A program made the translations under genes and the position numbers. Below are positions 4,941 through 59,847 of a stretch of DNA of 64,000 nt, piece by piece (the first letter of the stretch is position 1; each line of letters begins with the position of its first letter). Below the pieces are notes generated by a model, which was not told where the DNA came from, searched no databases, and saw only the letters and a list, made by a program, of their open reading frames with translations. Source of the DNA: Fragilaria crotonensis (Eukaryota > Bacillariophyta > Fragilariophyceae > Fragilariales > Fragilariaceae); contig JAKSYS010000116.1 of NCBI GenBank assembly GCA_022925895.1, positions 1 to 64,000 on the forward strand. Direction: 5' to 3'.

Positions 4941-6672
4941 GGGCGCCTCGCTGACCTTTCCCACGTGGCTTGACAGGCGTGATGAAGAGTCCCAACTATC
5001 ATGCGCAGTTGGGGTAGATCCATATTACGAGGGGATGGGCAGAGTACATTTACTGCAACTTTCAGGCGAGGGCAATCGTGTTCAGCTTGCAATGGACACT
5101 GTCAATAATGGCAGTTCATGCTCAGATTCCTTTTAGTTCAGACAGTGAATTGATCATTTCCAAAAGAAGGCTCACCACTTGGAGAAGAGTTTAGTTAAAA
5201 TTGTCCTATTATATGATGTTCATCGAAATGATGGAACCTACTAATAGGAGTATTTCCTTGGATTGCTCATGAGTAAGGAGTAGCTACTACTATAGCCAGT
5301 TCTGATAGTACAATCCTTTGGCTCCTCGTATGGAATACAAGACCAGCAGTTAAGTGCCCTCAATGAAGCTAAATGCATAAGGCGGCGAGTATTGTAAGCA
5401 AGGAGATGATCATCGGTTTCCTCGTTAAAACACTAGGATAGGAATCAGTACATTTGGATATTTTGCACTCAACTATGAGCAAACGAGAGTGAAACACTTT
5501 GATTCAGTTGTCGCTATGGCACCAAAACCAATACACAAGAGTACAAAATAGTTTGCTTCCTCCACATGGATGGCCATTGTCATGTTGCAAATCTCACACT
5601 CTCAAAAACCAGAACAACAACCAGACCGCTCGGCGTATGAGGTCTATACATACATGGATTTCAATGCCGCACATTTTGATCATCATTTCAGGAAGTTGTC
5701 AATATATTGAGCAACACCATGCATCTAAAAACCATTTATCACTCTGTAATAGAGACTGGTTTACGTATGCCAATGAATGCTGATATTGCAATGGCCAAAA
5801 ATCAATCTGTGTTCAATTGTCTGCTGCCCAGAGTTCAACTGGTCTCTAGTAGTGGTGTGAACTTAGGATAATCTGGAAGGCCTGACTGGAGTGCATGCCA
5901 TCCATTAAGCTTTGGAATCAGATGACCACAAGTTCCAAGTGATGAGGATACTAACTCTTCATTGTGACCCAACCACTGCTTGGGACTGGTGTGATACCTG
6001 AAACAACCAGCTGCAGCAAAGGAGCATTTGCATTCAGGATTGGTGCAGCATTCTATTGACCACTCTCCTGTAGCACATTTATGTCATGTCAGCAAACACC
6101 AAATGTGGTGACGTGTTCATCGCAGAAGAAGTGCAATTACTTCCAACTGCCGGGAACCACATCACAAGGTGGGTTTTTGTGAGTTGATATACATGTAGTC
6201 ATTAATGACGGTTTATGTTTCCTGAAGTGGTTACTTTTAGACTTAAATAGTCAATAGTTGTATATAGTTGGTTTTTTTCTACGTGTTATAATGATATAAT
6301 ACTAAAATATATTAATTATCAAATTTTATCAGTGAATTCTCGAATTATAATCAATCTATATGGTTTGATATCAACAAAAAAATATAAACTATAACTATAT
6401 TTCTGATTGAATCAACAAAGTGATGGATATAACGAATTGATTTTCACTGCTGCAACCATTTTTCCAAAATTTGACTTGGTGTTTTCTAAATTCACTGATA
6501 TTGAGGCATACTTGCCAGTTAGGTTTCCGAGGCACAGTGAATGGCGTTGTCTAAAACTTTTACCGTATTTCTGGCATTTAATGGCTGTTGTTCAACAGGT
6601 CCAGTGATCTTTGAGTTCATTGTTGAATCTTCGACAATTCTGTGCATTGCTTCTCTCTTTACAAGGATTCAC
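4941..6672. other. Gene-poor stretch ending in AT-rich DNA
   Basis: No supported coding region. Frames here are short and of unusual composition. Positions about 6230-6420 are very AT-rich, and I could not find inverted repeats there. This may be the left edge of the Plavaka-like transposon, whose transposase begins at 6673, but no terminus is visible. Confidence 0.4.
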
Positions 6673-8072
6673 ATGCCGAAACGCACATCCTCTACTACGT
6701 TGTGCGACGGATGTCACAAACCCTTCAAGCGAATCCAGGTACACTTGAATCACAATCTTGTTTGCAACAGCATTTATGCTTCTCGGAAGAGCACAATTGA
6801 TCCGTCTGCTGGTATTGGTGGTACTTTGATTAACAGGAGTGCTGCCAAGGCCGCGCAAAACCACGCTTCGTTGTCCCCACATATCCTCACAGGACAAGTA
6901 ACTACTGGACACCAGGAGGGTCACAGTCGTCAACGATTTTCTGCACCATTCGAATTCAGTTCTGTTCAGGATGCTGGTCGTGCTGCTTCTGTTGAAGCAC
7001 TAGATGGTGACGATGACCCTGATGAGCATGAATTGGACGACGACGATGACGTCAATCCTTTTGGTGAGGAAGAGTCGTTGACGACGCCACCTGATTTGGT
7101 TGAGAACGGAGCGACAGACCCTGACGAAGGAGTCCTTGAATTGTACGAGGAACTCCTCCGCCTTCAGTCAAATCCATTATCCTCGCTGGCCAAATTCTCT
7201 TGTGAAGAGAAGGTTCATATTGAGTTGCTTCAACTCTAAAAGACTTGAAGGCGCCACTTTCTGCGTTTAAGCACATACTGAACTGGGCCAAAAGCAAATG
7301 AAAATGGCCACCAATTTCAGACCAGTTGCCAGCCATCACGTGAGACGGTTACAAAGATGTTGTTCAGTCGTTATAACATGCATGGTTTGGTTCCCAAAGA
7401 GAAGAAGTTGTATCTGCCCTATTCAAAGCGTATTGTTACGATGGTATATTTCGATGCACGCCAAGTGTTTGCGTCATTGCTGTCATGCCGTTCCCTCAAG
7501 GACGAGTGTTTATGTTTCATGAACAGGGGATCCATTTGCTGTGCCTGATGCGAGGACATCAGTAATTGGTGACATCAACAGTGGTCGGTGTTATCGAGAA
7601 ACCTATAAGAAATTGGTAAAGAATCCGCAGTCTGACATGATACTACCTTGTGTGCTTGCAATGGACAAGACGCACATTGACCTTCCGAGACTCCAGATGG
7701 AGCCAATCACAATTTCTCACGGGTTATTGAAGCATGAGTTTCGCCGTTTACCCATTGCAATGCGAATTTTGGGTTACATCTATCACGGAGTGCATCACGT
7801 AAGGCTCAGAAGGTTGACCTCAACGTTGATTACAATGAGGCACCCAATGACCTTCCTCCTGGTGTTGCGACTGTGAGCAACGTTCTAAAACCTAAAAAGG
7901 CGTCACCTGGCCTACATACATGTTGAATGAGTATCACATGCAGATTGCATTTATTCTTTCGGCATCAGGTTTTTTAAGCTTGCAGGACAAAGGCTTCAAG
8001 TGGAAGCTTCAATACAAGAAGACTGTCCACGACGTCATATTTCACCCCTTTGTCCCTTTCATAATTGGTGAC
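6673..8072 (+). pseudogene. Plavaka-like transposase, 5' part (interrupted)
   Basis: The first part of a DNA transposase gene. The start at 6673 precedes a C2HC finger-like motif (CDGCHKPF...HLNHNLVC). An Asp-rich stretch follows at about 7000-7060, then conserved transposase blocks. The block at about 7660-7790 (MDKTHIDL..., ITISHGLLKHEFRRLP, RILGYI) matches the layout of Plavaka-family transposases, where an SSDKT-type motif is followed by a KEIRRKPS-type motif and a LLGYLP-type motif. The frame shifts at about 7240, 7340, 7515-7545, 7800 and 7880. The frame ending at 8072 (…PFIIGD) continues in phase at 15017, across the inserted element. The family assignment rests on remembered motif order; no search was run. 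Confidence 0.6.
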
Positions 8073-8223
8073 TGGCATGTCCGAAGTTCGGGAAAGGGAG
8101 AGCAGTCGCCGTCAGACAGACGAACACGAGACACAGACAGACGAACACCCGGACACAACACAAGATGCGAATTGCTCACAATCCGGACGAACTCGAATCA
8201 ACAAAGACACTACTCTAGTTAAT
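8073..8223 (+). repeat. Split direct repeat A1
   Basis: A 151-bp segment from TGGCATGTCCG to CTAGTTAAT. It matches A2 except for two small insertions: AAG after TGGCATGTCCG, and CA within the GCTCACAATCC stretch. It forms the left end of the retrotransposon. Confidence 0.9.
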
Positions 8224-8287
8224 TTAATCTGGCCTCTTCCCTCAAACCACCAACCGACCGACGACTCGAACGACGAACGCAGATAGG

Positions 8288-10535
8288 ATGGCCGACATGT
8301 CGTCCCCTATGACGATGACGTCTACGTGGGAAGACGTCTTCCGTGCCCTTGACCAGTGGGAAGTGGTCCCGAAGCTCAACAGATTACACACGAAATCGAA
8401 TTCGATTAATACGGAGTCTACAGGGTTTGTACACCTGTGTTCGCCGGACATCGCACACCTGATGGTAAACACGCACGGGACGATCCGTCTGTTCCACCAC
8501 TTTCACCACGACGCCGACGACGGACTAAACGACGGAACGAACGCCCTATGGGCACTTCTCGGCGGCGGTGGATTCGCAGCCGCCATGGCGGTCGACACGA
8601 AACAGATCGTCAGAAGCCACGTTGGAACGCCTTACGATTGGTCCAAAATGCTCACGTGGAATTCTACGTCCGACGTACGAAGAGCGATTGAAGAATTGGT
8701 GACGACGAGATCTTCGGTGTCAGGCGTCAGCGAGAGCGCCGGACAGGCATCGGCGCCGGCGCGGGAGCCACCTCCTGTGGCAGCGACGAGAGGACGCCCC
8801 AAGAAAGGCAGTGCCCCAAGAGGCAGATCCAAGTCGAGCAAACATACTAACGAGACTAACGACCAAGACAAGACGAACGACGCGGACGCGGACGACACAG
8901 AAGACGTCACGGTCGTCGGTTTCACCATGAAACCGACAGTACCAGTTCCGGCGTTCATCGCAGCAGCCATCATGGAATCATACGTCACCGACCCTGAGGA
9001 ATTGGCCCTGATGATAGTCAGGACCATCAAACAGAGGGCGAGTGAGGACCCGGACCCCGACCGGGCGTCGAGGTTGGCCGAAGCAGCGTCCTACGTACTC
9101 GATGGGTTCTCTGCGTTGCAGCGAGCACCAGAACCACTCACGGTCCAACAAAGTGGGGAGTGGCGGCTTCGTCAGCTTACTCTAGGCGAGCGGACGACTG
9201 GGCGAAAGTCCTACACATGAAGTACCTGGCCGTGAAGGCTAAAAGCCTCATCCAATCGGACGATCAGTCAGAAACGCCAGGACGAGAGAACGACGCCATC
9301 AGAAACTTGTCGAGCCTCCTCGAAAGACAGGTCGCTAGCGCAGTCGCGTCATCTCCTCAAATCCCGAAGACAGGATTCGACTCGTTCCCCGTCGACAAAG
9401 CGGATGATCCTGTTCGTTTCGGAGAAGGACGCCTTGGGAGGACCCCAACTCGCCCCGTCCAGACCTTCGCAGACATCCTAGCGCTCAGCAACGTGGCGTA
9501 CGTCCAAAACCACATACACCATTTCTTGCGCAACACGAAAGGGAGGGATGCATTCATCCCAATGGGTTTCTGCGCAGCCATTCGACCGCATCCTTCCTAG
9601 CCGACGCTTCGGACAGACCAGGAGCCTTCAGCCTTTTTGCTGCGGGCCCCAGACGCTCGCACGATCGAACGCGACGGGCAGGGATGCTCTCGACCACGCA
9701 AGCACCCTTGTTCAAATGCAACTTAAGACGACAGACACGACAACTGGATTCTCGGACAAAGACATCAAGAGCATGACGAAGCTCAATTTCACTATCCCGC
9801 GTGATTTTCACGAGCTCGCGCGACTACTCGAGAACATGGCGGGGTGGCCGAGCTCCTCTTCGGCCCGCGGTCCCCGTTGACGCATATGTTGGACGAGTGG
9901 TGTCGTTTCCTGACGCGAGCAGTCGGATCGACCTTAGCGACGTTACGACAGCTAGCTCACGAAGACAACTCGGCCGCCTGTCGCCTCGGTTGGTTCATCG
10001 AGAAACGCACGCAACAATACTTGGTGTTGTGCGCAGGAGTGGAACACGAGGACGATATCAACCTGAATCTGCTAGACTTCCGTTCGACGCGTCAGCAACT
10101 GGAGGACGGAGCCTTCGTCTTCCCGCCTGCGACTTCTTGAAAGACAGGATGGGGTCCGGGGGCGCTGCCGCGAAGGCGGAAGCCCCAGCGCATCAGGAGG
10201 AGGCGGCGCACGATCTGGACGAAAGGGACAACCAGCAGACGCTGTCACGAACCCGCAGCAGGACCTGTTCACGAAGGACGCCAACGACGTCTGGCAGGTC
10301 TTCCTCGATCACGTGCGGAGCGGGCCGCTCGAACATGTGCTGCCGCTGGCACTTGAACGGCAAGTGTGTCCGGAGCTGCTTCCTGAGCGCTTCGCACGTC
10401 GCCCTTACGACCGAACAAACCGCGAGCGTTAGGGCATGGATCGAACAATGCAGGGCGCGCATGCGCCGACCCTCGTCCGACTCGACGCCGCCCAGCAAGA
10501 AAACGAAATTAGGACCTCTGCATCTGCTTACACTA
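8288..10535 (+). CDS. Gag-like region of the Ngaro-like element (frameshifted)
   Basis: The first open frame (8288-9220) starts at an ATG 64 bp after repeat A1 and encodes 310 residues. A central low-complexity stretch rich in Ala/Pro, Arg/Lys/Ser and then Asp lies at about 8740-8910. The reading then passes through other frames: about 9200-9600, 9610-9840, 9845-10140, and the region to about 10530. Near 10330-10400 there is a cysteine/histidine cluster (CCRWHLNGKCVRSC...H) that resembles the CCCH-type finger near the end of Gag in DIRS-order elements. The likely role is RNA packaging in the retrotransposon particle. Assignment is by position and the finger; the rest has no motif I recognise. 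Frameshifts prevent a single product. Confidence 0.6.
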
Positions 10536-13065
10536 CAACTTTTTTCGTCGCTCAGCCTTCCCGGTGGTCCTTTGATCACGAGGCAGCCCATCGCGAATTT
10601 CACAATCGACGAACGACAGGGGACGCACCGCCTTTCCGCGACTCGCGCCAGCCGACCGATGGACCCATAGCGGGTCCGTCCATAGCAATCCCGGCTGCAC
10701 AACCACGCCCGACGGCAACGATCGCCACGCATGAGACATCGCTCGCGGCCGCGACACCGCCTCGCCCCGCCCGACCGCCCACGACCGTCCGCCGCGGAGC
10801 TGACCGCCCCGGCACTGCGAACGAGGACGTTCGTCTCACGTCACGACTCCTGGACACCCCCTCTGGGGGTCCTAGGACCAACGGTAAGTCACTCGCCCTG
10901 GTTCCACTTCCGACGATACCGCTTCCGAATGTCGACTCGCCTTTCCCGCGCCTTCCCGAACCTCGACTCGCCGATGCTCTGGCCAGCATCCTCGACGCCC
11001 CCCAGCCGACGACGCACCCGACCGAATTCCGCTTCGAATGGACTCACGAGGCGGCCGCTCACAACCTGGCAGTCCTCCGGCGCTACGCGCTGGACCTCGG
11101 GGCAGCCGTGGACGCCCAACCGTTCAGCGCGGTGACACCCGGATCCGAATTTCGATCCGCCGCGCTCCTGGCGCCGCTCCTCTCCGCACACCCGCTCTGG
11201 TCGCGCTTCCAAGAGCGCATTTCAGACGGCGCGGATTTTCCTCCGCGAGATTTCCGACGCCGACCGCCTCGCCGACGTCCGCGACAACCTCGCCCGTGGC
11301 AATCACAAATCGGCCCGAGGCCACGAAGCGAAGTTGATATCAATGCTAAAAGAAGAAGTGGAAAGGGGCTGGCAACTGCCCCTACCGAGGAGGCCGCTCT
11401 GGAATTAGAAGGCTGCGAGGTGGCGCCTTTGGGCATGGTGGCACAGACATCGATCGACGAGAAGGGACAGACCATCGAGAAGCTAAGGCTCACACGACCA
11501 GTCATTCAACCCCAGCGGGATCCCAGGACGAAGCGTAAACGACAGAGTGGACACGTCACAACTGACGACCGCACGATTTGGCAGGGCTTTCAGTCGACTG
11601 ATGTACCACATCTCGTACCTCAGACAATTGTGGCCGAAAGAACCCATCCTCCTCACAAAGGTGGACTGCAAATCCGCCTACAGACGAATACACTTAAAGG
11701 CACGAACCGCCCTGAAGTCTTGCACTAGCATTGACGACCTGCTCCTCGTGGCACTCAGGATGACTTTCGGAGGAGCACCAAACCCGTCCCAGTGGAGCGA
11801 CGTGTCCGAAGTAATCACGGACCTTGCGAATGACCTCGTCAGGAGATCAGACTGGGACCCGAAGGTATTCCACTCGCCGCATCAACACTTGCTTGATTCT
11901 GACGAAGCCGTAGATAACGACGATGGAATGATCGACGGGTCGAGCGAATTCGGAGAAGCCGATTTCTTCGCTGTGAACTACCCGATCGCAAACGACGACG
12001 ATCTACCCAGATTCGACTGTTACCTGGACGACATTTTTGGGGCTTTCAACCCAAGAGACGCAGAAAAGAGCTCGGCAGCGATTCCCTTGCATTGCACATA
12101 GTGGGAAGACCCCACAACGCAGAGGGAAACGAATCCTTTCCCAGAGACGACATCCTTGCCATCCCGAAGTTCCTGGCCGAGGCGAAACCATCTGAGCGGA
12201 AGATGATCTTGGGATGGCTGGTAGACACACGCCGCTTCACGGTCGCTCTGCCTGAGGACAAATACCACGCATGGACGAAAGTGATCGACAAGATCCTAGC
12301 GAACAGGCATGCGCACGTAACGACGAACGATCTGGAGAAGACCCTCGGACGACTCAGCCACGCCGCATACGTCGTCCCGTACTCCAGGCATTTCATGGGG
12401 CGACTCTACAAGGCATGCGAGAGATCGAAACGAAGTGGAAAGACGAGACTGACGAATCCCCAACGCGATGACCTGAGCCTTTGGAGGAGCTTCCTGCGAA
12501 GAGCGGCGCAAGGGATCTCCATCAACAGATTGGTCTGCAGGTGGCCGACGCGAATCGTTCGGGTGGACGCTTGCCCGCAAGGGATAGGAGGATATGGTCT
12601 CCAAAGCGGGATTGCTTGGCGATACCAACTGCCCGAAGATCTAGCGGGACGAGCGACACTTAATACGTTGGAGTTTCTAGCAGCCTTCGTGGGAATGGTA
12701 GTCGAATTCCGCGAAGGAAAAAGTGGTCGCCAGTCTCGGACGTCCTGCTAAGCCAAGGGATAGCACCTCGGCCGCAGGGTGGCTGGCAAAGTCCAGCTTC
12801 GACGACAACTGTCCGCTTCACCTCACCATCGCGAGGAGTTTCGCTGATTTCTGTCTGACGCACGAGATCGACCACTACACTCAATGGTTCCCGGGGCGAG
12901 AGAACAAGGTGGCGGACATTTTATCGCGAGACTTCGCGCTCGACGACGACGAGGTCACCTCGCTCATCAGGAAACATGGCTCACCCTTTGTCCCACAGAA
13001 CTTCAGGATCATCCCCTTGCAGCCAGCCCTCATTTCGCAGATTGGAGACTGGCTGCGTCTGCTGC
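10436..13065 (+). CDS. Reverse transcriptase-RNase H of the Ngaro-like element (frameshifted)
   Basis: A long frame (10436-11728) begins with a Pro/Ala/Arg-rich linker and then enters RT. The NHKSA stretch, K-R-x(3)-D and SVN-type blocks (about 11300-11540, in shifted frames) are typical of DIRS-order RTs. Motif A is KVDCKSAYRRIHL (about 11660-11700). Motif B is around FGGAPNPSQWSD (about 11770-11800). The catalytic YLDD motif is at about 12020-12035. The RNase H region follows (about 12545-12930), with VRVDACPQGIGGYG, an E in the TLNTLEF block, a degraded middle, and the FPGRENKVADILSRD block near 12890-12935. Frames change at about 11240, 11490, 11550, 12080 and 12730. The enzyme copies element RNA to DNA. 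The motifs leave little doubt about identity. Confidence 0.85.
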
Positions 13066-14127
13066 CCAAAACGCAGCTCTTGCCGACTCAACCCGCGCCA
13101 AGCGCAGCAGCAGCTGGAACTGCTACGCACGATTCCTCGAGCGAGTCGGAGTCGACCTCGACCCTTTCTCCGCCGGTTCGGACGAAACGAAAGGACGGAA
13201 ATCTTCGCGTGTTTCGCTGCCGCCCTTCGGGACGGACGGCTTCGCTCCAGACAGCCTGCGACAGATGGCAATGGAGCCATGTCCGGTACCATTCGTGCCA
13301 CCCTCGACGGTGTGGCTCAGACCTTCAGGCTTAACAAACTTGAGAGCCCAATCCACGACTCCGCCGGACGCCTCGACCCCCTTCTGGCTTTACAATTGAA
13401 GAAGTACGCGGACGACGACCCGGGAGTCGCACAACAACAAGCCATTCCTCTTGAAGTGATCAGGAAGGTGAGATCCTGGTCCAGGAACGAGTTGGACGTG
13501 GCAGTCGGACAACTGGTGGTCACGGCCTTTTTCTTCGCCATGAGGTCTTGCGAATACTCCGACGTGGGAGGCGGCAGACGAACATCGGTAGTCAGAGTAG
13601 ACGACGTTCGATTCAGGAAACAGGACGAAACGCTGACGACTTTCTCCTACGAACAAACCCGAAATGCAGACGCCGTAACGATCACCTATCGACAACAAAA
13701 GAACGGAGACAAAGGAGCGAAGGTGACGCAGCACAGGAACAACAACCCCGGTCAGGCAGACATATGTCCGGTACGGACACTTGCGGAATTGATTCACAGA
13801 ATTAGAGGCTACGAACGACTTGGTCGGACGAACCCGAAGATAAACGCTTTCGTATCGACAACATCGAACGAGCTCGAACACGTCTCTTCGAAAACGATCC
13901 TCGAACAGCTGAGGGCCGCGACAATACTATCGGGAGAGGAGAGGCTGGGACTCCAGGCCGATCGAATCGGTACGCACTCGATTAGGTCGGGCGCGGCCAT
14001 GGCAATGCACTTGGCAGGTGTGCCAAGCGAAACGATACAGATGGTGGGCCGTTGGCGGAGCAGGACGTTCATGAGATACCTACGCATCCAAGTGCCAGAC
14101 ACCACGATCGGGTCGCCACGCGCATGA
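13066..14127 (+). CDS. Tyrosine recombinase of the Ngaro-like element
   Basis: An integrase of the lambda/Cre fold. An N-terminal core-binding part begins at about 13085 (STRAKRSSSWNCYARFL). After one frame change near 13175-13190, a clean frame runs to the stop at 14127. The catalytic residues can be seen: an Arg in FFFAMRSCEYS (about 13530-13560), the H-x-x-R box in THSIRSG (about 13975), the Trp in GRW (about 14050) and the nucleophile Tyr in MRYLR (about 14075). This is the full R-H-R-W-Y set. The protein would join a circular DNA copy to the target without duplicating target bases, which agrees with the insertion site seen here. It ends 62 bp before repeat B1. Confidence 0.9.
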   Translation, partial: PKRSSCRLNPRQAQQQLELLRTIPRASRSRPRPFLRRFGRNERTEIFACFAAALRDGRLRSRQPATDGNGAMSGTIRATLDGVAQTFRLNKLESPIHDSAGRLDPLLALQLKKYADDDPGVAQQQAIPLEVIRKVRSWSRNELDVAVGQLVVTAFFFAMRSCEYSDVGGGRRTSVVRVDDVRFRKQDETLTTFSYEQTRNADAVTITYRQQKNGDKGAKVTQHRNNNPGQADICPVRTLAELIHRIRGYERLGRTNPKINAFVSTTSNELEHVSSKTILEQLRAATILSGEERLGLQADRIGTHSIRSGAAMAMHLAGVPSETIQMVGRWRSRTFMRYLRIQVPDTTIGSPRA

Positions 14128-14189
14128 CGAATCGACAAACTTTCTTCACAGTCGCCCATGATCCTGCGGACGAACGACAACCGGAAAAT

Positions 14190-14486
14190 GGCGGAAACCA
14201 GGTCGACTCACAACGACGCGACGGACCCCGCTAGATGAATATCACGGGACCGACCCCGCGAGACGAACCAGGAGAGAGAGACAAAACTATTAGGACCAGA
14301 TTCCGATGCCATCTATTTAGTTCCACTAGCCTCGTGAACATGAAGGAGAATCCAGAAACCACACACAGCAACACACGAATCGACGCGACAGTACGCGAGA
14401 CAGCGGTACGACGAAACCACTAGGCGGCCGACTCATCCGACTAAACGGACTTAGAGAAATGCGGACAAGACTCGGAATTTATTTCG
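14190..14486 (+). repeat. Split direct repeat B1
   Basis: A 297-bp segment from GGCGGAAACCAGG to ATTTATTTCG, directly abutting A2. It matches B2 except for one missing C in a C-run near 14229 and one extra G near the GAGAGAGA stretch. Confidence 0.9.
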
Positions 14487-14632
14487 TGGCATGTCCGTTC
14501 GGGAAAGGGAGAGCAGTCGCCGTCAGACAGACGAACACGAGACACAGACAGACGAACACCCGGACACAACACAAGATGCGAATTGCTCAATCCGGACGAA
14601 CTCGAATCAACAAAGACACTACTCTAGTTAAT
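14487..14632 (+). repeat. Split direct repeat A2
   Basis: A 146-bp segment that begins immediately after B1 and matches A1 at the left end of the element, apart from two small gaps. The B1/A2 junction would correspond to the joined ends of a circular intermediate. Confidence 0.9.
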
Positions 14633-14719
14633 CCCACCCACCCACACCTCCTCTCCTGGCCCGATGCCTAGGTTCATGAGCGCCCGGCGCCGGTTACCTC
14701 CTGGCCATGCACTGCATGG
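14633..14719. other. Spacer between A2 and B2 with an inverted repeat
   Basis: An 87-bp unique segment: CCCACC repeats, then a GC-rich GCGCCCGGCGCCGG stretch, then the 7-bp inverted repeat CCATGCA-C-TGCATGG ending at 14719 against the start of B2. It may help fold the element RNA during replication; that is inference. Confidence 0.6.
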
Positions 14720-15016
14720 GGCGGAAACCAGGTCGACTCACAACGACGCGACGGACCCCCGCTAGATGAATATCACGGGACCGACCCCGCGAGACGAACC
14801 AGAGAGAGAGACAAAACTATTAGGACCAGATTCCGATGCCATCTATTTAGTTCCACTAGCCTCGTGAACATGAAGGAGAATCCAGAAACCACACACAGCA
14901 ACACACGAATCGACGCGACAGTACGCGAGACAGCGGTACGACGAAACCACTAGGCGGCCGACTCATCCGACTAAACGGACTTAGAGAAATGCGGACAAGA
15001 CTCGGAATTTATTTCG
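14720..15016 (+). repeat. Split direct repeat B2, right end of element
   Basis: A 297-bp segment matching B1. It ends in ATTTATTTCG at 15016, after which the interrupted transposase gene resumes with ACGGAG. Confidence 0.9.
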
Positions 15017-17203
15017 ACGGAGGGTCACGATCGTCTTTGCGGGCACTACACCGCACGATTTGCAAAAATCAAACAACTATGCCGTGCATGCGAATGTCCC
15101 ACAGAGATGACTGGTTACTCAAAATCTGTGTACCGCCACAGGAAGCCAAGTCATGTTGGAGGTTTGGTGAGAGAGGGAGATGTTGAATCCTTACGCGCAC
15201 TATCACAAAATTATGTCGTTAACGGCTTTAACAAAGTTCGGTTTGGCCAGCACAACGCGAGAGGAATTTTTGGAGCTTGTCCTGGTGAAATCCTCCACTT
15301 GATCACACTTGGGTGGTTCAAGTACTGCCTTGAATCCTTTGCACACCAAGCTGGCGCAAAGAAAGGGAAGAAATCGGCTGCGCTTGAACATTATGACGCT
15401 CTTTGCGCAGACATTGGAAGTGCCATGGTACGGAAAAGTGACCGCGACCTACCACGTACAAATTTTCCGAAGGGTTTTCCACGGGATCTAATCTGATGGG
15501 TCATGAGATACCAGGATGTCTCCTAGTCAAACTCTTCGCATTGCACACTAGTAGTTTCCGACAAATCTTTCCCTCCTAAAGAGTCAAAGAACAAGGCTGC
15601 GAATGGAAAGGGATGGAAGAAGAACGAGAACGGAAAGCCTGCAGAAAGAAAGGACAACAGAAACGGCCGTCGGCAACTGTGGAAGCAGGGAATGATGCTG
15701 CGATGCACGATGCGAAGCAGGAGGAAGTGAAGTATGTACCACCCCACTGCCTAAACTAGGGTGTCCCAAGCACACCGCAGATTGATTCACATCATTTCTT
15801 GTCTGCTGCAATGGCATCAATGGATGAAGCAACCGACAATAAGGCGTAGTCATGTGATAAGGTTGGCCACTGGTGTTCGATGGCTAATCCGCAATGTTGC
15901 CAATATTTGCCCACGGATGTCGGGAATGAGGAACAATACAATCAAGATGCACCTTGCGCTTCACATCAGTGAGGATATACTTGATCATGGTGTCCCCGAC
16001 GTGGTAAACTCATCATATGCAGAATCTGCACACATTCCACTTGCAAAGAATACATCTCGCAATACTCAGAAGCGTGTTGCATCCTTTACAAGACAAGCAG
16101 CACACCGGTACCATGAGGATTTGGCAATCTTGGTTGCCAATAATGATGTGGACGAGTTTGAGGCCAAGAAGCCTCCAATCCCTTTAACTTCCTCGGGTGC
16201 TGCTGGTCGTCGGTTTGTTCTATCGCAGAAACCCTCCTCAGCTGGTGATGACATCATGTTTGCGTGGAACTCTCCCCGCGCGACAGATGATTCGCCTAAA
16301 AACAGGCTTCCATCTCGTATCTCCAAATTTATTATGAAATATTGTTGCCCAGATGTCCCCAGGGGTTTGGCAAAGTCTGTGCAATGCTTCACGGAGTTTA
16401 TCTCTGAGGAAGGAGATCGGTACAGAGGCCATCCAAACTATCATGGGAAACGTTGGTGCGATCATGCAATGATTAATTGGAATCTTGATTTCCCCTTGCC
16501 AGGACTCATTCACACCTTTGTGGACCTTCGTCATCTCCCAGATAATACTCGTATTCGCACGAAACTACAAAAGAATCTCAAACCTGGAATGTATGCGGTT
16601 TTGGAATCCTACGATGCAGAAGATGCAGATCCGGCTGTTCCGAATAATATGATCGGCCTGTACACACTTCATAGGGAACCAGAAGAGGGTCGTGGCAATA
16701 TGCTGGTATCTATTTACCTCATCGAGGTTGGGAGCATCTTTGCTCCCACAGTTGGGATTCCGGACTTCGGGAACAGAGACTCAGACAAGTATTTGTTCCT
16801 ATTCCGAAGAAGAGAGGAATGGCCATCAGCATGGGATCATTTTGTACAGTACTGTTGCAAGAATAACGAGGAGGAAAGCTTAGAGTCTGAATACGAGGAG
16901 GAGGATGACAAAGACAACGAAGAAGTCAACGAGGACGACGAGCAGGATGATGACGACGACGATGAGCAGGAGGATGACAATGATGACGATGACGACAAGA
17001 ATGACGATGATGACGATGATGACGATGACGATGACGATGACGACAATGACAATGACAATGACAATGACAAAGAGGATGACAATGATGACAAGGACGACGA
17101 CGATGATGATGATGAGGACAATGACGACGATGACAACAACTCGGATGATAACGATGATGACAACGAGAACGAGGATGATAACGACGATGACGACGACGAG
17201 TGA
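15017..17203 (+). pseudogene. Plavaka-like transposase, 3' part with poly-Asp tail
   Basis: This continues the gene from 8072 in the same phase. Residues TEGHDRLCGHYTA follow directly on …IIGD, and the combined block with LCRACECP resembles the GD...CP.C block of Plavaka transposases. Further blocks include FGQHNARGIFGACPGEILHL (about 15240-15300) and a long clean frame from about 15880 to 17203. Short frame breaks occur between about 15490 and 15880. The last 110 residues or so are almost only Asp, Glu and Asn. The stop at 17203 faces the convergent gene ending at 17378. The gene would make a DDE-type transposase if intact; here it is split by a 6.9-kb insertion. Confidence 0.6.
16885..17203 (+). 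repeat. GAC/GAT trinucleotide-rich tract coding poly-acidic tail
   Basis: A run of GAC, GAT, GAG, AAC and AAT codons forms the end of the transposase frame. The opposite strand gives an all-serine frame (16837-17220) that I treat as a shadow. Such tracts are prone to length change. Confidence 0.85.
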
Positions 17204-26659: not shown

Positions 26660-28584
26660 ATGAGGGACGCGAAGGTGGATTGCTTTGCGACGTTGGAAGA
26701 GGTGATGCCATTAATTGAAACGTATGAGATTCGGTCAGAAATCACTTGCGGGTGCAACGCTCACTCGAAATCAATTTAAGCAGTTCCAATGTCGGGAGCA
26801 TGTCAAATGTCCATTCCAAATTTTAATATCGAGGCGGCGATCTGACGGCAGGTTTGGCGTGTCGAAGATTAAGGGTTTGCATGGCGACGTGCGACGAGCT
26901 CCGCTCGCGGCTGATGGGCGGCATTGGAAGAAGCGACATCCGAACCTGCATGGAATTATTGGTCAGGTGGTTCAAACAAAGGAAGGAACACCGACACCGG
27001 CAGACGTTCAGAAGACGGCTGCGACACGTTCTGGTCTGATTGTGCCGTACATGACTGCGTACCGAGCACTGACCCATGAAACAAGCGCTCAAAAGGCTGC
27101 AACGTTGAAAAACTTCGAGATGATTGTCCCTTTTTTGGAAGCGTTGAAGAGCTGTAACCCTGATTCCATTATTGGATGCGAGAGGGATAAGGACATGAGG
27201 GTCGTTGAGCTGCATGTTTTCCCCGGGATCATGAACCGAGCGCTGAAGTTTGTGCGCCCGGTACTGTCTTTGGATGCCGCCCACCTGAAGAGTGTGTTCA
27301 AAGGCACTCTGTACGTTGCATCAGTTCTGACGGGTAGCAATGATATCTTCCCAATTGGATTCATGATCTCGGCAGGCAATGAGGATGGTGCTTCGTGGCG
27401 AAAGATGCTTCGTTATCTGAAGAAAGCGTGCCCAATCATTGGAGAGCAGGTGTACGGGAATGTTGACGTGGATGGGGTCGCGAGGCCCCCATTTCTGTTC
27501 ATTTCTGACCGAGACAAGGGTCTGAAACCGGCGTTGAAAGCAGTGTTCCCTGATAATTTTGAGATGAGCTGCGCAAAACACATCGAGGGCAACGTGGCGC
27601 AGAAGTTTGGCAAGCAGTGTTCCAAATATGTATTGGCAATTGCAAAAACATTTTCGACAAGAAATTCTAGTCGCTTATTTGAGGAGGTACGCAGGATTAA
27701 GCCGGAAGCTGCAACGTATCTGGATGAAATCACGGACAAGGATCGTGTTCTGTGGCGGACCACTCAGTGGTACTCATCTTCTACCGCCGTTGTCATTCCA
27801 CCAAGGTATGGAATTGTGACGTCGAACACAAGTGAGGCAGTGAACAATATGTTCTCTGAAGCTAGAGACCTGGGGTGGTTAGAGTGTGTGAACAAACTCA
27901 TCGACATCATGTCGACAAGGATATACGTGTGCAGAAAGAAGTACAGTGAACGTGAGGGGTCCGAAGTGGTGCCTAGAGTTGCGCAGATAATGAAGGTTAG
28001 GTGGGATGCAGCTGCTAGCATGACGGTTGTCGAGTTGGAAAGTGGATGCGGTGACTTTAAGGTCGTAGAACCATCATCACTTGCGGAGGATGACCTTGCT
28101 GAGAATACAGTACGATCGTCAGCAGGATACCTGGACCAAAACCGCATCAACATAGTAAAGCCAGACCTTCAATGGTGCAGCTGCGGTGTCTGGCAAGACT
28201 TCTTGTACCCCTGTCGACATGCGTGTGCAGTCTTCAGGAAATGGAAAGAAAAGACTTCACCTATGTCATCGGCAATTTGGTGCATCCCTACTACAGTTTC
28301 GAGTTTGTACAAAACACGTTCAGGAGCAACGTCTTCCCGTCTGCTTGGAAACACTCGAATATGATGGCGTGACGAAGGAACCAGCATTGCCAAAGCGACA
28401 GGCGGGACGCCCGAAGACAAAACGAATTCGCAGACGAAGTAAATTTGTCGAATTGAAGCAGTCGCCTGTAACATGTTCCATCTGTGGGAAAAGGGTCACA
28501 ACCGACGAAGTTGTGTTCCGTCTGTGCAGAAAGGTGCCAAGTCCAACGAAATTGCCCCAGTCTCTAATAGTGTCTAAAAGATAA
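26660..28584 (+). CDS. MULE transposase with SWIM zinc finger (frameshifted at both ends)
   Basis: The main frame (26715-28364) holds a Mutator-type DDE domain. The first Asp is in LSLDAAHLKS (about 27270), the second in FISDRDKG (about 27505), and the Glu in SNTSEAVNN (about 27830). A SWIM finger follows: CSCGVWQDFLYPCRH (about 28178-28222). The N-terminal 25 residues or so read from ATG 26660 and join the main frame after a shift near 26735. The C-terminal part (about 28250-28584) lies in other frames and has KRQAGRPKTKRIRRRSKF followed by CSICGKR, as in many MULE and FAR1-type proteins. The stop at 28584 falls inside the right inverted repeat. The enzyme cuts and joins the element ends. 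Confidence 0.9.
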
Positions 28585-56197: not shown

Positions 56198-59100
56198 CAT
56201 ATACAACTGCCAGCAGAAGGGCCACTTCGCGAACAAGTGTCCAAACCCTAAAAGGCAAAATCAGATGCCACGGAGAATATGAATATGTTTGTCAGCGTTA
56301 CGGTCTCGGATGATATGTCGGTTCTGTATCCAAGGTGGACACTCTGAGGAATGGCTCCTCGATTCGGGTGCTACGTGTGGGTTACCTGAGTAAAACCTAT
56401 ATGACAGATATGAAACCATCGAATCTTCAAATCACTATCGAAATGGTGATAAAGTTTCCACGCAAGGCCAAGGCACGGTCATGCTAACGGACAAGCTTGG
56501 GCAAACAATTGTTGACGGATGTCTACTACGTCTGACATTTACGAAACATATCGTCAGTATGAGAAAACTGATCGATGATAACTGGGCGTTCCACGTCGCG
56601 GATAAGACGGCGTTTGTCTTCTGATTCTACGAAGGGCACGGTCAAGTTGGACGAAACGACAAAGACATGTGTACTACTTCACTGGTACTCGAAAGGTAGA
56701 TAATGCCAATAATCCGCTCGCGCTCAGCTTGACAACTGCCCCAGTCACTTTGACATCAACATCGCGCACAGCCTCCTGGGCATCCAGACATGAAGACGGT
56801 TACTGCTATGGCTAAAGAACATGGTTGGACCTCACGGGATCAGTGCAACCATGTGGTTCTTGCGCTGGCCAAGGCTCGAGCGAGGCGACCCGAGTACTAA
56901 GACAAGGCCAAGCCAGGAAAGACTCTTCTGATGTTTCGGGACCATATTCGACTCCTAAATCAAAACAAATACTGGCTCAAGATCGTGGATGACTATACGC
57001 GATACAGTTGGTTCACTTCTTACCTCGCAAGAGTGGCATTCAAGATTCCATTGTTGAAGTTGATTCAAATGAACAAAGCCGCTGGAAAACCAGCTGATAT
57101 CTCCGTTGCATGCCGGAAACGATCTATGTGCAACAGTTATGTGCGGAGAACGACATTCAGTTGGAAATGACTGCTCCCAATACTCCCCAGATGAATGGGG
57201 TCGTGGAAAGAAGCTTTGCCACATGTCGAAATCGTGCTTTCGCCACTATGTACTGTGCGCGCTTTTCATTGGCTACTCAGGGTCTTCTATGGCCGGAAGC
57301 CGTGAATACTATCACCAAGATTGGGAACAGCCTTCCAAGACCGGGACTGGCGTTGGACCCACACAGGGCTTGGTACGGAAAGGACGCGGTGACGAATCGA
57401 ATCATCGGTCATCTTCAACCTTTTGGCAGGATTGCCTACGTCACGAACAGAGAGAAGCTCAGGGCCAAGCTGGATGCCCGCTCAAAGAAATGTGTCTTCG
57501 TCGGCTATGCTCAAGACCATTCGGGCGATACTTACAAGTTCTACGACCCAGCAACTAAGCAAACTATCATGTCTCGTGACGTACATCAGTGGATGGAATG
57601 GCACGGACGCATCACAGCAACCGATGACATGGATTTGTTTACCGAACTCGAGAAACTCAAGACGGATTCGATTATACTGCCAGCGACGGCAGACAGTACG
57701 ATTTTGTCAGACGAGGACTTTCCGGACGATAGTGCCATGCCGGATCTCACATCACGTTCTTCGATCGCGGAGGACAACCCAGAAGTACCTGTCCCCACCG
57801 ATGTCGCCGCTTCTGCGCGGAGGAATTTGACATCAGTCTTTAATGAAGGGGCAGTAACTCGCTCACGTCCTCGCCAAGATGTCAGTCACAGAAACGACGA
57901 CACAGTGGAGGAAAGTAAAAGTAACTTGGAGGAATCTGTCGACTACCTCCTCGTACTGAATGCGTCACTGGAATCTGATCCAAAACCGGGTGTCCCTAAG
58001 AATTATAAAGAACTTATCAAGTCAAAGGACATACAGTGGTTGAAGTCGATGCAAAACGAATTGGGAAACTTCCTAAAAAGAGGCGCTTGGGAATATGTCC
58101 CTAGAAATAAGATACCCAATACACGCAAGCCACTCAGATGCCGATGGTTGTTTAAAGAAAAGCACGATGGTACGAAGAAGTCACGCTTGGTAGTACGCGG
58201 GTACGAGCAAGAGCCTGGTGTGGACTATGTGGAATCTTACTCCCCACTCGCTACAAATACTACGGTAAAGGTGGTACTGGCTATGGCCCTATACTATATG
58301 GGATACTTCGACGATTGGGTCACGGACATGATCGATGTTGAAGCTGCCTTTTTAAATGCATTATTGGACACGGATGTCTTCATTGAAATGCCTGAGGGCT
58401 TAAGGGAACTGCTTTTAAGTCAAGGAGTAACCCTCGGAGATGTCATTATCAAGCTACTACGCGCCCAGTACGGGCTGGTACAAAGTCCAAGACTCTGGAT
58501 GGAATTGTTCTCCAAGATCCTTGTGTCTATCGGGCTTAAACAATGCAAAACTGACCCATGTCTGTTCTGTCTATTCGACAAGAATGGGAAACTACTGGCT
58601 ATCGTGGTTGTGTACTGCGATGACTGCCTAATTACCGGACGCGCTAAGTCAGTGGCAGAAATCAAGGCCGGAATCTCTAAACAAGTCAAGATAGAAGATC
58701 TTGGAAAACTGTCGCGCCATCTCGGCGTCGACTACAAGTTTGGTCGTGACGAACATGGGCCCTATATTCTGTCCTCCATGAATGAGTATCACGAATCAAT
58801 GATCAGAGACTTCGAGAAGGACATTGGAAGTTCTCTCAAGACGTTCTCGACCCCGGGCGCAGCTGTCACACCGCCATTGCGTTCCACCCCAGAAGACGAG
58901 ATCATCCTAAACGAAGAGTACCGCTCCTACGTTGGAAGGATTATGTTTGCGTGCGGTAAGACGGAGCCGACGCTATCGAATGCGTGCAGGGAATTGACCT
59001 CGCATCTAACTGCACCAAACAAGGAACACTGGACAGCCCTCGGACACTTGATGGGCTATATTAAGCAAGGAACGAACCTCGGTATCAAGATGCGAGCGCC

Positions 59101-59847
59101 TAAGGATACACGTGTGGTTGCGTTTGTCGATTCGGATTATGCGTCGGATCGAAACGACCGGAAAAGCATCTCGGGACACTTGGTGACAATTGGCGGATGC
59201 CTGTCTCGTGGCAGTCCAAGAAACAGACAGGTGTGACATTGTCCTCGACGGAAGCCGAATTTGTCGCAATGAGTATGGCTGCTACGGAGATCAAATTCAT
59301 CGTGTCCCTCTTGACGGAAATTGGCAATGGCCCTCCGGTAATGCCAAGTATTCTACGAGAGGATAATACCGGCGCTATCTTTATGGCGAAGAACACGGCT
59401 ATCGGTCAACGCACCAAGCACGTGGACATCCGGTACCGATTTGTTAACGACATGATTCTGTCGAAAGAACTTTGGGTCCAACATATCAGGAGTGAGGAAA
59501 ACCCAAGCGATACGATGACGAAGAATCTACCATTGTCTCTATTTGGAAAACATGCTGCTCAGATCACGGAAGGTCTATTGGGCAATTTGTACGATCCACA
59601 GAACACGGAGGATGTCGAGAGCTACTGTGCTACTGCCACATTGTCGAGTGCTACTGTACCATCCGGACAGTACGCGAACTACAACGGTAGCAGTTCCCAA
59701 GCTATCTGTTCTGTCGATGCCAACCTTGCTGACCAAATTGGAGATGGTTGGACAACCATTATTGGGAAACATAAAAGGAAGGACCAGGAAAGCAAAGAAG
59801 ATAAAGTTCCCAAGGCAGGAATGAAAGTGCAGCGTGGGATTGATTAG
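56198..59847 (+). pseudogene. Copia Pol: protease, integrase, RT, RNase H (several frameshifts)
   Basis: The protease Asp motif is LLDSGAT (about 56353-56375), followed by a stop. The GAG-pre-integrase HP...C..C block is near 56785-56870. The integrase core begins near 56925 (KIVDDYTRYSWF) and continues in the next frame (NDIQLEMTAPNTPQMNGVVERSFAT, with the catalytic Glu). A long clean frame (57110-59236) covers the rest of integrase and RT, with WLFKEKHDG, DVEAAFLNALL (motif A) and YCDDCLITG (the YxDD active site). RNase H starts FVDSDYASDRNDRKSISG, shifts at about 59200, and continues VSWQSKKQTGVTLSSTEAEFVAM...LREDNTGAI...KHVDIRY. The final frame runs about 235 bp into the 3' LTR before stopping at 59847. 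Confidence 0.9.

Follow-up and report, generated by a model that had tools for sequence, protein, structure and literature searches.

What kind of element occupies positions 8073 to 15016 of this Fragilaria crotonensis DNA, and how does it copy and insert itself? The window, the whole stretch of 64,000 nucleotides that was analysed, carries there a set of long repeats around gag-like, reverse transcriptase (RT), RNase H and tyrosine recombinase (YR) regions. We consider this element likely to be a diatom's Ngaro-like retrotransposon with a tyrosine recombinase; it would cycle via RNA ends inside its outer repeats, recopying from the B1/A2 unit and a circle. The host genome matched the Pfam silicon transporter model 19 times (18 above the cut-off, best 646 bits); one of 14 control genomes had a match, and none of the 14 had one above the cut-off. 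As silicon transporters typify diatoms and seldom occur in other organisms, these matches make a diatom host very probable. Three silicon-transporter domains were found in one 1456-aa open frame (G000:C97:29749-33762).

Layout, coding regions and classification of the element

Alignment of the repeats gave exactly the A1-B1-A2-spacer-B2 positions, including the 87-bp spacer, that a sequence-only reading had reported earlier (Table 1). A1 and A2 aligned with 0 substitutions and two gaps (5 gap bases), and B1 and B2 with 0 substitutions and two single-base gaps; repeats of such length and identity are far beyond chance. They were direct, forming split direct repeats with the inner pair downstream of the YR, and the only inverted pairs in the element were two of 20 nt each with 75-85% identity. 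A short imperfect inverted repeat, CGGAATTTATTTCG, was observed at the B end (14473-14486), directly at the B/A junction; its counterpart in the related elements L051 and L052 was CGAAGTTCACTTCG. This B-end repeat is possibly a recombinase binding arm.

The domain order by motif location was gag-RT-RNase H-YR, all on the + strand, and the gag-like, RT-RNase H (YLDD) and YR (R, HxxR, W, Y) regions were located between the repeats, as claimed before. The gag-like region seems to carry on in other frames to about 10490; its ORF had no Pfam match that counts (STPRs, E 0.25). The RT, RNase H and YR motifs bear the names that we take to be theirs; the order assumed for RT was TKVDCKSAYRRI, FGG..P, YLDD and LGW.., and that for RNase H was D, E, D and AD.LSRD. 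No RT or RNase H Pfam model matched, even when the intact relative L051 was used; the Pfam scan of this region gave only unrelated PGDH_C (E 0.07-0.23), and the PDB search for RT only an unrelated reductase (E 0.07 and 1.7). Both domains are putative, assigned from motifs and from alignment with L051 in the same genome, whose intact 727-aa ORF carries RT and RNase H motifs in canonical order. The one relevant Pfam match in the element was Phage_integrase on the YR, with E 5.8e-5 for the whole ORF and E 1.8e-5 for the C-terminal part, the latter scoring 25.0 bits, below the cut-off of 27.1. The YR catalytic residues aligned among relatives, and a profile of these relatives matched Cre recombinases best in the PDB (E 0.34). 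The frames of the window copy were broken by several small indels, mostly absent from other copies. A scan of positions 7900-15200 gave neither tRNAs nor matches to known RNA families (E up to 1).

Table 1. Positions of the element and its parts in the window
Feature	Position	Strand	Basis or remark
Complete element	8073..15016	+	TGGCATG...TTTATTTCG; same left terminus in 15/17 copies read, same right terminus in 11/17
Repeat A1 (left outer)	8073..8223	+	repeat alignment
Putative RNA 5' end zone in A1	8158..8179	+	restart points in L008, L015 and C281 and end-to-end joint of L014, nt about 86-107
Start of gag-like ORF	8288..9220	+	310 aa; assigned by position
Cysteine/histidine (CCCH-like) motif, end of gag-like region	10341..10397	+	motif location only
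Putative RT motifs A, B, C (YLDD), D	11655..12238	+	motifs; aligned with intact 727-aa ORF of L051
RT motif A	11655-11690	+	
RT FGG..P motif	11763-11810	+	
RT CYLDD	12018-12032	+	
Putative RNase H motifs (D, E, D, ADILSRDF)	12557..12935	+	
YR ORF (R, K, HxxR, W, Y)	12976..14127	+	motifs and sub-threshold Phage_integrase match
Overlap of RT-RNase H and YR frames	13007..13387	+	tblastn of both L051 ORFs against window
YR R motif	13534-13557	+	
YR K motif	13696-13710	+	
YR HSIRSG	13975-13992	+	
YR GRW motif	14044-14061	+	
YR Y motif	14071-14091	+	
Repeat B1 (inner)	14190..14486	+	repeat alignment
Repeat A2 (inner)	14487..14632	+	B1/A2 junction at 14486/14487
Spacer	14633..14719	+	87 bp; C-rich tract CCCACCCACCC, then GC-rich region
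Repeat B2 (right outer)	14720..15016	+	repeat alignment
Putative RNA 3' end zone in B2	14830..14840	+	ends or joints at nt 6758-6768 in L009, L012, L014

In the scanned ORF pieces, no methyltransferase family appeared among matches with E up to 1, and the overlap of the RNase H and YR frames leaves no room for one between them. The assignment of the element as Ngaro-like is based on its anatomy (layout, domain order, co-oriented YR, no methyltransferase). These features agree with the published definition of Ngaro, which in PMC4157794 and PMC3266345 comprises split direct repeats, a co-oriented YR and no methyltransferase; the earlier preference for Ngaro, based on the missing methyltransferase, was upheld. 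Like Ngaro in those texts, the element reads A1-(gag, RT-RNase H, YR)-B1A2-B2, with the inner repeats downstream of the co-oriented YR. It differs from Ngaro in the conserved A2-B2 spacer, which is 87 bp long here and 89 in other copies, in an RT below Pfam detection and in the overlap of its RT-RNase H and YR frames, which was found in the window and in L051, where the open frames overlap by 427 nt. According to PMC3266345, such overlap is unusual for Ngaro, non-overlap being a usual but not absolute trait.

This long overlap, together with the split direct repeats and YR that PAT and Toc3 have in common with the element (PMC4157794), would also suit a PAT (Toc3-like) element whose methyltransferase was lost, with the same mechanism. 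We regard such an origin as improbable, since a methyltransferase is expected in PAT according to that text, and here the ORF pieces scanned gave no matching family and the frame overlap leaves no room for one between RNase H and YR. Even less credible is a YR element outside DIRS/Ngaro, such as a stramenopile lineage with a recombinase nearer Cryptons. It would account for an RT too divergent for Pfam and for a weak match to DUF3504 (E 0.09 to 0.22), a domain reported as absent from DIRS/Ngaro YRs in PMC3212892, but the DUF3504 score was far under the cut-off (12-13 of 29.7 bits) and the match was absent in L051. Moreover, Cryptons share a tyrosine recombinase with the element but are described in the same text as DNA transposons without long direct repeats; they have no RT, and RT motifs are present here. 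DIRS1-like elements resemble the element in circle-junction integration without target duplication, which is the published model for them, and in the long ORF overlap that is common among them (PMC3266345), but they have a methyltransferase and inverted terminal repeats with internal complementary regions, whereas the repeats here were direct and split. VIPER likewise combines RT and YR with split repeats and no methyltransferase, but is known from kinetoplastids.

In earlier reports, Ngaro is recorded from other stramenopiles, with 15 families in Ectocarpus and 80 elements in Cafeteria (Cafeteria burkhardae); for Phaeodactylum a 'DIRS' class of 14 copies is tabulated, and the diatom reports consulted give only 'DIRS' categories. 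No description of Ngaro in a diatom was found in a literature search that covered few subscription journals. The earlier remark that such elements are not well described in diatoms overstated the novelty, given the other stramenopiles and the Phaeodactylum 'DIRS' class.

Copies in the genome and the A2-B2 spacer

A search of the same genome (62.1 Mb, 881 contigs) for full-length copies, the check proposed in the sequence-only reading, yielded 17 near-identical copies at 16 sites, namely the 16 loci L001-L016, each carrying most of the element, and one copy split between L017 and L018. These 17 made up the copy set read; partial matches (C654, C840, C153, C92 and others) lay outside it. L001, the window copy, and L002 have common flanks, which may reflect either two haplotypes or duplication of a contig. 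Thirteen of the 16 other copies showed no more than 7 substitutions relative to the window copy over the aligned part (range 1-30), with 28-83 indel events per copy. Because L001 and L002 too differed mainly by indels, most indels, and hence most frame breaks of the window copy, look like sequencing error. The few substitutions, with most indels apparently error, argue that the element family is very young.

A second subfamily was about 79% identical in the body. Exact-match mapping located 111 starts of A and 92 ends of B; reversed control patterns gave 0. More distant relatives were abundant, with 126 matches for YR and 76 for RT (one copy often accounting for several matches), and several had open frames; the YRs of L051 and L052 were about 51% identical to the window YR. 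RT relatives with 35-38% identity and open frames of 1115-1292 aa (C114, C117, C423, C492 and C542) are probably further YR-retrotransposon families. No relatives were found in scans of viral contigs and other genome contigs. A PIF1 helicase ORF (L051:594-2402, E 2e-52) adjoined the 5'-truncated relative of the element at L051 and possibly belongs to a Helitron. At L052, a Copia-like RT with YVDD (by eye; L052:2777-3868) lay beside a truncated YR element and is probably a nested insertion.

An assembly duplication was rejected as the source of the repeats, as all 40 scored A2-spacer-B2 units (144 candidates) adjoin B1. The two copies read without a TGGCATG start, L007 and L012, run off their contigs, and the common right terminus was the end of a full B2. 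L015 and L016 ended at B1, with the same terminal sequence, in an A-body-B form without A2-spacer-B2. They may be products of recombination of B1 with B2, or body-circle integrations resolved at two B/A junctions. The exact-match map suggested up to four more such forms (C7, C53, C125 and C314), and the genome search for copies another (C654). Assembly errors with a collapsed A2-spacer-B2 could also produce single-B copies, as near-identical repeats can collapse in assembly and the copies differ mostly by single-base indels, typical of long-read error. We think this rather unlikely for L015 and L016, because the empty-site match of L015 points to clean ends and L015 bears an A1 scar of its own (both described below). 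No isolated A-spacer-B unit was shown in the exact-match map, in which 100 of the 111 A starts and all 92 B ends were listed and copies with sequence errors would be missed; C164 and C570 were rejected as such units, B1 adjoining both. By contrast, isolated AB repeats are reported for the Cafeteria Ngaro. In the copy split between L017 and L018 (G000:C722:74640-81104), a 6.5-kb insertion sits at element nt about 2154-2157; it has TG...CA ends, is accompanied by a GGAC repeat of 4 bp and is probably an LTR retrotransposon.

The spacer begins with CCCACCC, a tract common to all four families compared. Pattern capture gave 79-86 nt among the variants listed, the last bases lying outside the capture. 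Between L002 and L020, which represent the two subfamilies, the spacer had 3 substitutions in 89 nt and no gap, compared with 10 in 151 in the A repeat and 27 in 296 in the B repeat. At the substitution rate of the body, 3 or fewer would occur with a probability of 2e-6, and at that of B with 0.04. The spacer is thus a conserved part, and at a guess it may serve as a packaging or cDNA-synthesis signal. A predicted GC-rich hairpin was the same in the two commonest spacer classes, and the window version and some others were predicted to fold differently. No compensatory changes were seen in this hairpin, the differences between the two main classes falling in the loop and at a single site farther 3'; pairs are disrupted in a few variants. 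In the two sister families represented by L051 and L052, only about 15-16 nt separate A2 from B2, if A2 ends where CCCACCC begins. The 87-bp spacer, which had been called unusual, is not confined to this copy and is conserved in two subfamilies.

Break points in the outer repeats and insertion sites

Six faulty copies broke, restarted or ended at element nt 86-107 (in A1) or 6758-6768 (in B2), in the outer repeats only; the inner A2 and B1 were unbroken wherever present in the copies read. Three had an A1 scar, i.e., nearly the whole of A followed by a restart inside A1, at nt about 93 in L008, about 98-100 in L015 and about 86 in C281 of the second subfamily. The pattern search for these scars gave 0 with the reversed-pattern control, and two of its three matches were previously known copies. 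The probability of three A1 scars and none in A2 by chance was 1/8, and these scars could be replication slippage. In L012, B2 extended to nt 6761 and was joined there to the final 7 nt of B; L009 and L014 ended in B2 at nt 6766 and 6768, respectively. The left end of L014 consisted of A, then spacer and partial B2, with a joint between nt about 6758-6763 of B2 and nt about 105-107 of A1; this was the only such end-to-end joint found by pattern. Further B2 scars did not turn up in a pattern search, which missed that of L012 too, as it required TTTATTTCG and L012 has TCTATTTCG. The right end of L013 lay in the spacer (nt 6592), outside both break zones. The B2 zone fell in the block TAGGxCCAGAxxCCGAxxCCA, conserved in L051 and L052. 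In the window, the A1 zone coincides with GCTCACAAT or directly precedes it; the A2 of L051 and L052 carries CTCACAATT (by eye, the alignment not placing GCTCACAAT and CTCACAATT in one column).

These clusters suggest RNA ends. Deletions after insertion and slippage at microhomology might be considered instead, as the L014 joint lay on a partly shared 9-nt stretch and L008 had a 1 nt overlap. However, seven break points fell in two zones of the outer repeats only, and one A1 scar sat in another subfamily. Furthermore, 0 of 200000 random sets of seven points fell in two 15-nt clusters, in a test run without the C281 point (with which the A1 zone widened to 22 nt), the L013 end and the jump landing points (A nt about 142-151, B nt 6938). 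We therefore judge the microhomology explanation to be quite unlikely, and prefer to read the clusters as traces of RNA ends.

The joined flanks of 12 insertions were searched against the genome, and 40 of 191 candidates were scored. Empty sites with a contiguous match were obtained for 7 of the 12. No net gain or loss was seen for the window (220/220 bp, 99%), L005 (220/220, 100%), L006 (221/221, 99%), L010 (221/221, 100%) and L015 (223/223, 100%), so that five of the seven lacked a target duplication. For L008, 182 query bases matched 185 (98%), within a 3-bp gap. For L009, 220 query bases matched 219, one copy of a duplicated stretch being left out of the query; its target duplication was 30 bp when exact and 35 with one mismatch, so the clean route was not followed by every insertion. 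No empty-site match was found for L003, L004, L011, L013 and L014 among the candidates scored. Rather than the other allele, the empty sites could be other repeats present as paralogous copies. Of 29 distinct insertions, 18 had a right flank starting with T (background 0.27, P 8e-5) and 9 had one starting with TG (background 0.073, P 1.5e-4). A one- or two-base crossover core is plausible because the element itself begins with TG. An LTR retrotransposon was rejected given the split repeats, the YR, the absence of a DDE (rve) integrase family in the ORF scans and the five sites without target duplication.

The element interrupts another multi-copy repeat (window 6541-8072 and 15017-17203), and neighboring ORFs had no Pfam match; the 220-bp joined flank of the window insertion had eight contiguous genome matches (97-99%) among those scored. 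Elsewhere in the window, a MULE transposase ORF (26715-28364) and a Copia-type (RVT_2) RT ORF (57110-59236) were present.

A putative replication and integration cycle

To our knowledge, the rebuilding of ends missing from the RNA in split-direct-repeat retrotransposons is mostly a paper model. Read against the repeat layout, the exact termini, the duplication-free empty sites, the T/TG preference and the clusters in the outer repeats, the break points would mark the RNA ends of a cycle completed by strand transfers, a circle and catalysis by the YR. The RNA would start about 86-107 nt inside A1 and end about 111-121 nt inside B2, without the outer tips of both terminal repeats. With ends near nt 86-107 and 6758-6768, the sequence missing from the RNA is contiguous in B1/A2. 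The RT-RNase H would make the cDNA, and the cDNA strand ends, with the remaining A1 and B2 stubs, would pair with the internal A2 and B1, so that the missing tips could be recopied from the contiguous B1/A2 unit. If the outer repeats are rebuilt in this way, breaks would be expected in these repeats only, as found. The product would be a closed circle with the B/A junction restored. The YR would then recombine the junction TTTCG/TGGCATG with a target needing little identity (T, often TG, being favored), and the element would enter without target duplication.

Tentatively, and with some doubt on our part, the faulty copies may record intermediates of the split-repeat cycle, among them RNA ends within A1 and B2, jumps of the template into B1A2 and a one-ended joining by the recombinase at the left B/A junction only, the unfinished right cDNA end being sealed by repair together with a target duplication (L009). 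If this is true, Ngaro-like cDNA would also enter the genome by a second, non-circle way, and the conserved hairpin of the spacer would play an active role in the cycle.

The copies document a recent and abundant expansion of Ngaro-like elements in a diatom. The break points predict the RNA ends within about 20 nt, as well as which repeat copies would be rebuilt, and the split-repeat model would thereby become testable by end mapping in a young family of near-identical elements.
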